DNA of 64,000 bases from Methanosarcina horonobensis HB-1 = JCM 15518. GTDB taxonomy: Archaea > Halobacteriota > Methanosarcinia > Methanosarcinales > Methanosarcinaceae. Under the pieces are notes generated by a model. That model was not told the DNA's origin. It saw only the letters and a list, made by a program, of their open reading frames with translations, and searched no databases. The position numbers were made by a program, and so were the translations under genes. Position 1 is the stretch's first letter, and each line of letters starts with the position of its first letter. Where the stretch lies: positions 1,839,036 through 1,903,035 of the forward strand of contig NZ_CP009516.1 of NCBI RefSeq assembly GCF_000970285.1, written 5' to 3'. Below are positions 14,795-62,602 of the stretch, piece by piece.

Positions 14795-16198
14795 ATGGCA
14801 ACCGAATATGCTTTGAGAATGGGGGACGGCAAACGCGTCTTCCTTACAAAAGAAAAAATCATAGAAGAACTGGGTGCCGGAACTGCAAACGCTGCAGATC
14901 TGGGAGAAATTCCTGATCTTACTGCTGATGAAATTGATAAGCTTGCAGAAATTCTCATGATGCCCGGAAAAGCCGTAAGCGTTGAACACGGCATGGAAGT
15001 GCCGGTTACTCATGATATAGGCACTATCCGGCTTGACGGTGACCAGGGGAACAGCGGCGTAGGGATTCCTTCAAGCCGGCTTGTCGGCTGCATGATGCAC
15101 GAAAGAGCCTTTGGTGCAGACACAATGGAACTCGGGCACATCGACTACAGTTTCAAGCCGGTAAAGCCCGTAGTTTCAAACGAGTGCCAGGCAATGGAAG
15201 TCTGCCAGCAGAATATGATCATCCCTCTCTTTTATGGCGCAATGCCGAACATGGGACTTTATTATACTCCTGACGGACCTTTCGAAAACCCCGGAGACCT
15301 GATGAAGGCTTTCAAAATCCAGGAAGCCTGGGATTCCATGGAGCACGCAGCCGAACACCTTACAAGGGATACGGTCTGGATCATGCAGAAGCTTTTTGCC
15401 TCAGGCGCAGACGGCGTTAACTTCGATACGACTGCCGCTGCAGGAGACGGAGACTTCTATGGGACTCTTCACGCGATAGAAGCTCTCAGAAAAGAATTCC
15501 CTGACATGTATATTGAAGCAGGAATGGCAGGCGAGATGGTGCTCGGGATGCATGGGAACCTGCAGTATGACGGAGTCACTCTTGCCGGACTCTGGCCTCA
15601 CCAGCAGGCTCCGCTTGTAGCAAAAGCAGGAGCAAATGTCTTCGGGCCTGTTGTCAACACAAACACGAGCAAGACTTCTCCCTGGAACCTTGCACGTGCA
15701 GTGACGTTCATAAAAGAAGCCGTAAAGGTTTCTCCCCTTCCCTGCCATGTTGATATGGGAATGGGTGTTGGCGGAATCCCCATGCTTGAGACTCCTCCGA
15801 TTGATGCCGTTACAAGGGCGAGCAAGGCAATGGTCGAGGTTGCCGGAGTAGACGGTATATAGATCGGGGTCGGCGACCCGCTGGGTATGCCGATTTCTCA
15901 CATAATGGCTTCCGGTATGACAGGAATGAGAGCAGCAGGCGACCTTGTTGCAAGGATGCAGTTCTCAAAGAATATGCGCATTGGAGAAGCAAAGAAGTAC
16001 GTAGCAAAGAAACTAAATGTCGAAACTAGGGACCTTGCAGATGAGCATGTTATGCGTGAACTCCGTGAAGAACTCGATATTGGTGTAATCACCTCAGTTC
16101 CGGGTGCAGCCAAAGGCATTGCCGCAAAAATGAACATCGAGAAGCTTCTCGATATAAAGATTAATTCCTGCGAACTCTTCAGGAAACAGACCCGATAA
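14795..16198 (+). CDS. mtbB: dimethylamine methyltransferase containing pyrrolysine (UAG read through)
   Basis: Reading through the TAG at 15860-15862 gives 467 residues, the known MtbB length; stopping there would give 355 and remove the last quarter of the barrel. The codon follows AGVDGI and precedes [18 protein letters not shown], so pyrrolysine is residue 356. In this family the Pyl side chain activates the methylamine for transfer to the Co(I) corrinoid of MtbC. Sequence after the UAG stays fully coding, with normal codon use, to TAA 16196-16198. The pylTSBCD genes needed for insertion are not in this window. Co-transcribed with mtbC. Confidence 0.96.
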
Positions 16199-60829: not shown

Positions 60830-61190
60830 AGGGCATTTGCCCTTTCTATTTTTTTCCATTTTTCTGATTTTAGAACAGTCTGTACTTTTACTTCATCGCT
60901 TGTGAGGGCACATGCTCTTCTTTTAATCCCTTCTCACTTCTCTCAAGAGCAATAATTACAAAGTTCCTGACCCTCAAAACCCTATCGTTAGCGATGCAAC
61001 TAAAACAGGATAATAGTAAAAGCACTCTTTTTTATTCTCTTTTTCTTCCTTGTAGCTATCTTCAGGTCTCTTTTTTGTTTCAGATAGTTTTCTCATATTT
61101 AGGTTGAAATTTTCAATGTTATTAAAAATTTCAATAAAACAAAATAATATAGTCAATTAGAAAATTAAAATTAAAGAATGTTTTTTGGGT

Positions 61191-61206
61191 CGATTATGAT
61201 ATATAT
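61191..61206 (+). promoter_or_regulatory. TATA-box region of small RNA copy 1
   Basis: CGATTATGATATATAT is identical to the sequence at 61925-61940, the same distance from the second RNA copy, while the bases between it and the RNA differ. Selective conservation marks it as the promoter core. Confidence 0.7.
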
Positions 61207-61223
61207 TACCGAGCTCTTATAAA

Positions 61224-61322
61224 AGAAGTAGATTGAGGGTAATAGGGTTTCCTCTCAATCTAAGGGTTGGATCGCAGGTAGGGACCTCGAGAATAGGGAC
61301 TCGAACCCTACCATCTACTTCT
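61224..61322 (+). ncRNA. structured small RNA, copy 1 (unnamed family)
   Basis: About 99 nt. The 5' AGAAGTAGAT (61224-61233) pairs perfectly with the 3' ATCTACTTCT (61313-61322). Inside are hairpin P2, TAGATTGAG/CTCAATCTA (61229-61237, 61254-61262), and hairpin P3, GGTAGGG/CCCTACC (61277-61283, 61306-61312) with inner TCGAG/CTCGA. Both hairpin loops contain AATAGGG. P1 and P2 share bases, so they may be alternative folds. No open frame is conserved with copy 2. TATA box 18-33 bases upstream. Family not recognised. Confidence 0.72.
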
Positions 61323-61906
61323 AAACTAACAGTTGGGTTTTAAATTCAATTTCGAATTATATTTCTTAAATATAGCTACTTCCAAATTAATTTTGAGGAA
61401 GACTTGCTCTTTTTTATAATGTCTTTATTTTAAATAAACCTTATGACCGTTCCTTAATTCCTAAATTCCTGAATTTATTATTTATGTGCTCGCAATTTAT
61501 AAGTGACAAATGTATGCATATTTTTATCAGGTTTTTAAACTGCCTTTAATTATGCTTACTATGTCCATTATATCTATTTGCTTGAGAAATTAACTCCCTT
61601 TTTTGTTTGATGAAGGCAGAAATTTCCACACTCAAATAGTTAACTATTTTGTAGAGATAAAATATACTGATAGTCAAATAGAACACAATATCCTTAAAAT
61701 AAATAACATACTGATAAAAAAGAATATCGCGTTAAGTTAAAAAAGAATGCTGTATTAAGCAAAGCACATAATTAAAACTAAAGTTAAGCATGAAATTTTA
61801 GAGAAAAACATGTGTTTATTACTGAAGGGGAAATCTTTGCTTGCTTTGTAAGATATTAAAAATTTACTTATGATTAAAATTTTTAATAAACCCAAAAAAA
61901 TATGCA
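61323..61906. other. AT-rich spacer between the two small RNAs
   Basis: About 580 bases of AT-rich DNA with no gene found on either strand. A CTCAAATAGTTAACTATTTTG palindromic word occurs near 61633, and an unrelated ATAGTCAAATAG word near 61671. Confidence 0.4.
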
Positions 61907-61924
61907 ATCACTATTTTTTTAGAT

Positions 61925-61940
61925 CGATTATGATATATAT
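61925..61940 (+). promoter_or_regulatory. TATA-box region of small RNA copy 2
   Basis: Identical 16-base CGATTATGATATATAT to that upstream of copy 1; initiation about 25 bases from its centre would fall at the first paired base of the RNA. Confidence 0.7.
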
Positions 61941-61959
61941 GTCCACATGATTATAAAAT

Positions 61960-62057
61960 GAATGTAGATTGAGAGTAATAGGGTTTCCTCTCAATCTAGG
62001 GTTGGATCGCAGGTAGGGATCCCGAGAATAGGGACTCGGCCCCTACCATCTGTTTCT
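61960..62057 (+). ncRNA. structured small RNA, copy 2
   Basis: Same architecture as copy 1: closing stem GTAGAT (61964-61969) with ATCTGT (62048-62053), where a U-A pair of copy 1 has become U-G. P2 is TAGATTGAG/CTCAATCTA; P3 is GGTAGGG/CCCTACC with inner CCGAG/CTCGG, in which the U-A pair of copy 1 is C-G, a compensatory double change. AATAGGG is retained in both loops (61977-61983, 62027-62033). GGGTTGGATCGCA between P2 and P3 is also identical. Confidence 0.72.
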
Positions 62058-62602
62058 GAGTCAAATTGCCATCTTTTTAACAGCGGGTTATAGTGGCTAA
62101 TATATTCGCCTACTCCACAATTCTTCTTTAATTATTTTTTAAAGATTTCCCTACATTTTAAGAATATCTGTAAGAGTGAACAAGCCTATACTGTCCCTAT
62201 TTTTATCGGATTAGTAATATAATAAAAATAGTTTTTAAAATATGGAAGAGAAATAGTATGAAAGAATGTGCTGGACACTAAAAACGTTCGGTAACCGCTC
62301 TGAATATTGATACTTGCTCAGTATAACAAGCGATATAGATATTGTGAACGCAACTGGTATAACATCTCTTATCCTCTCTGATATTCATTTACTTTTATAC
62401 CAGTTTTCTGGATTAAAGAAAAAAACTTATGATTAGACTCGCCAGGATAACTCTTGCCTGGGAGACGATATTACATCCGCATAATTGCTCGAGCCTAATC
62501 ATTTTCCTTTAACTTATTTCCTTTAACTTATTTCCTTTAGACTTATTTCCTTTTATTTCCTAAAGGCCCACACATCTGTTATTTAATGCATCTTTTTGCT
62601 AA
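62058..62602. other. intergenic downstream of small RNA 2
   Basis: CATCTTTTTAACAGCGGG just after the RNA includes a T-run that could end transcription. A threefold TTTCCTTTAACTTA-like repeat lies at 62500-62550, near the end of the peroxidase gene. No gene found. Confidence 0.4.

Follow-up and report, generated by a model that had tools for sequence, protein, structure and literature searches.

Two Copies of a Small Structured RNA in the Window

The window analyzed here is a 64,000-nucleotide stretch of Methanosarcina horonobensis DNA. Toward its 3′ end lie two copies of a small structured RNA (Table 1), part of a cluster situated between genes for a LysA-like decarboxylase, a cytochrome c peroxidase-like protein (a name read from heme motifs in the ORF), and a 2-oxoacid oxidoreductase. 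An earlier note on this DNA had located both copies correctly, and they align with each other over ~100 nt. Its observations that the distal promoter boxes are identical, that AATAGGG occupies both hairpin loops of each copy, and that hairpin P3 carries a compensatory change from U-A to C-G between the copies are all borne out by the sequence. Two further details require adjustment. The P2 stems are not identical, because one reads GAGGG and the other GAGAG, but the difference preserves pairing (G-U versus A-U). In addition, the copy starts are separated by 736 nt rather than 740. The description of the RNAs as twins has to be abandoned, given that the genome carries 10 copies and that a third lies just beyond the end of the window, which contains two members of a cluster of three.

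Table 1. Features of the RNA copies in and next to the window. Positions are those of the window unless a contig is named; bit scores are from covariance models (CM) R1 and R2.
Feature	Coordinates	Strand	Remarks
Promoter box, copy 1, TCGATTATGATATATAT	61190-61206	+	BRE/TATA-like; conserved in all subfamilies
A+T-rich proximal element, copy 1, TTATAAAA	61217-61224	+	~-12 to -5 of predicted start; putative role
sRNA copy 1, ~100 nt	61227-61326	+	R1, 119.3 bits; R2, 100.9 bits
Hairpin P2, copy 1	61229-61262	+	Covariation
P2 loop segment, copy 1, AATAGGGTTTCCT	61241-61253	+	AATAGGG at 61241-61247; complement of codons 6-10 in disaggregatase-type mRNAs
Linker, copy 1, GGGTTGGATC	61264-61273	+	Complements GATCCAACCC immediately 5′ of target Shine-Dalgarno
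Hairpin P3, copy 1	61277-61312	+	Covariation; loop AATAGGGA at 61292-61299 (AATAGGG at 61292-61298)
Tail, copy 1, ATCTACTTCT	61313-61322	+	Weak pairing with linker possible (P4)
Promoter box, copy 2, TCGATTATGATATATAT	61924-61940	+	Pattern count and upstream alignment
A+T-rich proximal element, copy 2, TTATAAAA	61951-61958	+	Upstream alignment
sRNA copy 2, ~99 nt	61963-62061	+	R1, 110 bits; R2, 99.6 bits
Hairpin P2, copy 2	61965-61998	+	Covariation; loop segment AATAGGGTTTCCT at 61977-61989 (AATAGGG at 61977-61983)
Linker, copy 2, GGGTTGGATC	61999-62008	+	Target-complementary
Hairpin P3, copy 2	62012-62047	+	Covariation; loop AATAGGG at 62027-62033
Third family copy	G000:C1:1903277-1903373 (L112:3278-3374)		242 nt past the window 3′ end; far side of cytochrome c peroxidase-like gene
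PYLIS_2	15860-15959	+	Pyrrolysine insertion element of mtbB; 113.9 bits

Members of the family were also examined for characteristics of other types of genetic element. A small-protein gene was not found, as neither ATG nor GTG occurs inside copy 1, and indels of 1 and 2 bases among the copies break frame conservation. The RNAs also do not behave as riboswitches or other cis-acting leaders, since their neighbors vary from locus to locus and often point away. These neighbors are mutually unrelated, and their functions were dropped as a clue to the role of the RNA.

The Family Is Found in Methanosarcina and Two Sister Genera

BLAST of G000, the genome from which the window comes (5,018,607 bp in one contig), identified seven further copies, and searches with a covariance model yield the total of 10. 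Model R1, which was built on an alignment of 50 distinct Methanosarcina units (A3), detects the family in 27 of 31 Methanosarcina genomes. When this model was applied within the class, the matches outside Methanosarcina came from two sister genera of the same family, designated g17 and g22. A broader cross-genus model, R2, was made from 37 sequences and is positive in 36 of 112 family-level genomes, comprising 30 of the 31 Methanosarcina genomes, four of g17, and two of g22. A covariance search of 197 genomes drawn from the phylum revealed no further genus with the family, and exact-pattern matches in named genomes are all from Methanosarcina. The number of copies per genome ranges from 1 to 13, with seven in the M. 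mazei-like genome G007. The earlier note had staked its reading on the existence of further copies with preserved pairing, and the covariance search recovered such copies with P2 and P3 intact.

Three subfamilies can be distinguished. The main Methanosarcina type carries AATAGGG in both loops, and this loop sequence is confined to it. The other two, types A and B, occur as a pair at a locus conserved between Methanosarcina and g17 (L111:5425-6038, L117, L121, L125, L141, L180, L185, L189, and L194), with ribose-1,5-bisphosphate isomerase/FilR1-like genes on one side and FmdE/TrmO/CobN on the other. Common to all subfamilies is the single-stranded linker GGGUUGRAUC, the deepest conserved feature of the family and one that is absent from the earlier note. 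The P3 loop of type A, AUCAGAGGUGGCAAA, is nearly invariant and contains GAGGUG, which could pair with the anti-Shine-Dalgarno sequence.

Two Hairpins Are Supported by Covariation

The two copies in the window have folding z-scores of -2.7 (copy 1) and -2.6 (copy 2). Among the 50 units of alignment A3, hairpins P2 and P3 show compensatory changes, and 98-100% of their cells are paired; one P2 pair, for instance, is A-U in 25 units and G-C in 24. The structure as a whole pairs in 98.1% of A3 cells, compared to at most 55% in slid controls. When the cross-genus alignment of 37 sequences is considered, changes on both sides are present in 8 of 18 pairs, and the covariation score is above those of all 500 shuffles and all slid controls. 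Taken together, the folding z-scores, the compensatory changes, and the covariation score demonstrate that the structure is not due to chance.

The closing stem P1 described previously does not share this conservation, as the numbers of units able to form its outer pairs are just 18, 29, and 37 of 50. The proposal that P1 and P2 form a two-state switch is unsupported for the same reason. A weak pairing between the linker and the tail (P4) would fit 96% of cells, but these are mostly in invariant columns and P4 is therefore only putative. The fold predicted for copy 2 has some of the linker bases paired to the tail.

A Nearly Private Promoter Precedes Solitary Copies

Nearly all solitary copies are preceded by the promoter TCGnTTATGnTATATA, which is almost exclusive to the family. 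Alignment of the upstream regions of 48 copies representing all subfamilies reveals T-rich conserved bases followed by TCG-N-TTATG-N-TATATA. The pattern TCGNTTATGNTATATA, with at most one mismatch, occurs at seven sites in the 5.02 Mb of G000, six of which are located before family members (the reversed control has five). No recognizable family RNA lies behind the seventh site (G000:C1:363419-363434, minus strand). Most solitary copies are also preceded by the A+T-rich proximal element, and the promoter is missing before downstream units of tandem arrays. We considered whether the promoter might mark a wider regulon and rejected this idea because its pattern retrieves hardly anything besides family members.

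In copy 1, the center of GATATATAT is positioned 27 nt upstream of nucleotide 61229, the first base of P2. This is the usual archaeal spacing between the center of a TATA-like element and the transcription start, and it places the predicted start at the foot of P2. Family members have their own promoter, are intergenic, and have different flanking genes at different loci, as is characteristic of stand-alone base-pairing sRNAs. The promoter thus supports the stand-alone transcription that we infer for these RNAs.

Linker and P2 Loop Are Complementary to the Start Regions of mRNAs

The earlier note had suggested a search for leaders containing CCCTATT, and this search led to real candidate target mRNAs. 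Genome-wide, complements of the P2 loop are only modestly raised in number (67 versus 39 in the control, with ~10 of the 67 being self-matches). However, the search drew attention to two leaders with GGAAACCCTATTCC in which the Shine-Dalgarno sequence is directly preceded by an exact linker complement, GATCCAACCC or ATCCAACCC, and codons 6-10 contain GGAACCCTATTCC. Because these leaders were picked by their loop complement, the linker complement is an unselected site. This unselected 9-mer beside the Shine-Dalgarno sequence of leaders chosen by the loop is the fairest single observation in the analysis.

The linker complement ATCCAACCC occurs 29, 31, and 12 times in three genomes, versus 6, 6, and 5 times for the reversed pattern; once self-matches are subtracted (~8, 6, and 5), some 21, 25, and 7 sites are left. 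Targets were sought by pattern search alone, and one ATCCAACCC site (L243, in genome G014) was left out of the reading. Besides scattered intragenic sites, one group recurs in all three species. Its members have the arrangement ATCCAACCC-AAAGGTGATACG-ATG-CTAAAAAGACAGCTAGGAACCCTATTCC and encode secreted proteins starting with MLKRQLGTLFLA.

Among 12 target modules, which are paralogous and therefore represent few independent events, ATCCAACCC (9-10 bp) is present in eight and AACCCTATT in 11, three of the latter being extended to the 13-bp AGGAAACCCTATT. Most targets were selected by the linker 9-mer, and for these only the loop site is independent. The corresponding segments of the sRNA are GGGUUGGAU(C) in the linker and AAUAGGGUU(UCCU) in the P2 loop, which would form 9-10 bp and 9-13 bp, respectively, at sites flanking the Shine-Dalgarno sequence and the start codon. 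The order of the sites is collinear and fits a single sRNA, with the P2 loop matching the downstream site and the linker matching the upstream site. Both segments reside outside the covariation-supported P2 and P3 stems, and no other part of the RNA is as well conserved. They match disaggregatase-type start regions in the manner expected for the seeds of a base-pairing sRNA.

For nine of the 12 modules, the block score is reached by no more than 5 of 2,000 dinucleotide shuffles of the sRNA, and the other three are not clearly better than shuffles (26, 112, and 979 of 2,000). When the duplex energies of linker and loop are combined, all eight start regions tested exceed all 302 background start regions. 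For one target, the optimal joint fold obtained by cofolding contains the 10-bp linker duplex. Cofolding does not allow the loop contact to form, and on its own it distinguishes targets from background only in part.

In g17 the linker is kept and the P2 loop is different, such that the loop complement would read GGAAACCCTTT where the main type has GGAAACCCTATT. Divergent type A copies have GGGGUUGAAUC, with no exact match to the disaggregatase-type targets.

Candidate Targets Encode Secreted Beta-Helix Proteins

The proteins encoded by the candidate target genes carry the right-handed beta-helix domain PF13229. Two targets, of 563 aa in G000 and 584 aa in G014, additionally contain the disaggregatase repeat PF06848, and both are followed downstream by further PF08480/PF06848 genes. 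The remaining targets are beta-helix proteins of 298-322 aa without PF06848. The single exact target in the M. mazei-like genome is one of these (298 aa), and its tie to disaggregation is consequently one of homology only. Disaggregatase acts outside the cell on methanochondroitin, the material that glues Methanosarcina packets together; by degrading it, the enzyme converts M. mazei aggregates to single cells (PMC12369344).

Each target mRNA has between one and three start-region modules in tandem, the upstream ones constituting short leader ORFs. In the leaders at L280, L281, L282, and L283, the tandem modules have ORFs of 26-45 aa, and the inverted repeat TTTGAGTTTACTCAAA is often found before each. 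At L281, the stop codon of a leader ORF lies inside the next Shine-Dalgarno sequence.

Relationship to Known RNAs

The earlier note recognized no described family, and Rfam 15 likewise has no match on either RNA: a cmscan of the window returned only PYLIS_2, and a permissive scan of positions 60850-62600 gave only weak chance matches elsewhere. A search of literature text for the RNA sequence strings produced one match, which was irrelevant. The family is apparently undescribed, and some of its members may be numbered candidates in the original M. mazei RNA-seq study. We regard it as a probable archaeal variant of the sibling base-pairing sRNAs, distinguished by two seeds that flank the start codon and by repeated target modules.

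The closest bacterial parallels are Qrr of Vibrio, LhrC of Listeria, and Yfr2 of cyanobacteria, which exist as near-identical copies with their own promoters and direct conserved single-stranded seeds against related mRNAs. The family described herein differs from these in being archaeal and unrelated in sequence, in having two spaced seeds around the start codon, and in its tandem units per transcript and repeated target modules.

Several Methanosarcina sRNAs also merit comparison. Like the present family, sRNA154 is intergenic, has two stem-loops, and acts on several mRNAs, some via the ribosome-binding site (PMC5867862, PMC11456600). However, sRNA154 is ~130 nt long and is encoded once, between MM3337 and MM3338, with an NrpR operator in its promoter; a single deletion suffices to eliminate its Northern signal (PMC3177094), whereas the family has identical loops in at least five places. 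No GGTA-N6-TACC sequence (the NrpR operator) is present upstream of the copies, of which there are 10 here and seven in G007. Because copy number and promoter differ, we exclude identity with sRNA154. The sRNA154 primer pattern had no match in G007, and the sRNA154 locus was not located there. The sRNA162/sRNA171 pair of M. mazei is similar in that a single-stranded linker between stem-loops masks a ribosome-binding site, but these RNAs are longer (to at least nucleotide 191, hence >190 nt) and have three stem-loops with a 39-nt linker that is their most variable part (PMC3510493). In contrast, the family members are ~100 nt and have two hairpins, and their linker of ~14 nt is the most conserved part, which excludes this identity as well.

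Two other candidate identities were rejected. A C/D box sRNA is not indicated, given that neither unit has RUGAUGA or an Rfam match. Mimicry of the 16S rRNA 3′ tail was considered because GGUUGGAUCA equals the bacterial 16S tail, but it was dismissed because the 16S rRNA of this genome reads GGCUGGAUCACCUCC and because the words in common do not exceed in length those obtained with shuffles.

Proposed Repression of Translation by Antisense Pairing

On the basis of these sequence features, we consider it reasonably probable that the RNAs are multicopy sibling antisense sRNAs that act in trans by pairing with mRNAs for secreted beta-helix and disaggregatase-related proteins, with repression of translation initiation as the likely outcome. 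The proposal of the earlier note, a structured regulatory RNA whose loops present binding sites, therefore survives in part: the RNA is structured and has mRNA complements, but the switch and the view of the RNAs as twins fall away.

According to this proposal, each sRNA would be transcribed from its own dedicated promoter and would fold into hairpin P2, the conserved linker, and hairpin P3. Pairing with target mRNAs in vivo would employ the linker GGGUUGGAUC together with the P2 loop AAUAGGGUUUCCU, with the P3 loop GAAUAGGG as an alternative. The linker would clamp the bases just 5′ of the Shine-Dalgarno sequence and the loop would clamp codons 6-10, such that the ribosome-binding site and start codon would be trapped between them. 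Binding of the 30S subunit would be occluded, and the predicted sign of regulation is repression of translation initiation. With regard to aggregation, repression would be expected to hold methanochondroitin-digesting enzymes down, and packets would persist until sRNA levels fall. The mechanism is made plausible by two precedents from Methanosarcina, in which ribosome-binding sites are masked by sRNA162 (PMC3510493) and by sRNA41 (via PMC5867862).

The main rival explanation is that the RNAs bind or sequester a protein, as do CsrB/RsmZ or 6S RNAs. The loops and linker would then be protein sites, tandem units would add valency, and the match to leaders would be coincidental or have another cause. 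The resemblance to CsrB/RsmZ is evident from the repeated hairpins, the invariant purine-rich loops, and the presence of several copies. Stems differ among paralogues whereas loops and linker hardly change, both loops display GGG in most subfamilies, tandem pairs of units follow one promoter in several genomes, and there are as many as 13 copies per genome, all of which would suit a protein ligand. However, sequestration gives no reason to expect the start codon to be flanked, in three species, by a collinear pair of complementary blocks. The conserved segments here have mRNA complements, which sets them apart from CsrB/RsmZ. Moreover, the P3 loop varies by subfamily (AAUAGGGA, GGACGGGA, or AGAGGUGGC), which would be odd for a fixed twin protein site. 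CsrA is not expected in archaea. We judge this explanation to be unlikely.

Another possibility is that the RNAs are base-pairing sRNAs that activate or stabilize their targets, or that have other main targets, with the disaggregatase leaders being a minor part of a wider regulon. sRNA154 of M. mazei does stabilize mRNAs via two loops (PMC5867862), and there is a surplus of ATCCAACCC sites beyond the disaggregatase group, including one 28 nt before a 126-aa gene (L248, L268). Nevertheless, the sites adjoin the Shine-Dalgarno sequence and occupy codons 6-10, positions at which a duplex should keep the 30S subunit from binding, and the pattern search of three genomes found no other target group with both sites correctly placed. 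This alternative seems quite improbable to us.

It is very unlikely that the RNAs are small nonautonomous mobile elements (MITE-like) whose hairpins reflect transposition rather than function: although there are many dispersed copies, some with terminal complementarity, that carry the promoter along, and one copy adjoins an IS605-type orfB gene (L106), two loci are common to Methanosarcina and g17 by gene order, the ends do not form consistent inverted repeats (P1 outer pairs are present in only 18-37 of 50 units), no relatives were found in viral contigs, plasmids, or phages, and the compensatory changes together with the invariant loops indicate selection on the RNA.

Possible Implications for Control of Multicellularity

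If translational repression by sibling sRNAs is correct, a more speculative extension can be entertained. It is possible, and we suggest this only tentatively, that a dedicated archaeal sRNA regulon sets the switch between multicellular and single-cell states. As many as 13 siblings, some of them tandem units sharing one near-private promoter, would act against leaders with one to three modules that serve as extra sites, decoys, or coupled uORFs, yielding a multivalent and dose-sensitive threshold for dispersal. The leader modules invoked here are mini-ORFs encoding signal-peptide-like leaders.

Methanosarcina ranks among the main methane producers and has a multicellular stage, which is true of few archaea. 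Targets are known for only a small number of archaeal sRNAs, and no archaeal sRNA in the literature searched belongs to a family of multicopy siblings that share a promoter. Disaggregatase is known to end the multicellular stage, but a 2025 review mentions no sRNA and says little on its regulation (PMC12369344). If our proposal is true, control of archaeal multicellularity would be directly testable with the existing genetics of M. acetivorans and M. mazei, and the sRNAs would provide a means of influencing clumping, both in digesters and during genetic work.

The 126-aa gene mentioned above, whose product begins with MSIV, represents a second candidate target type, with ATCCAACCC located 28 nt before the ATG in two species (G007:2241088 for L248 and G000:2766627 for L268).
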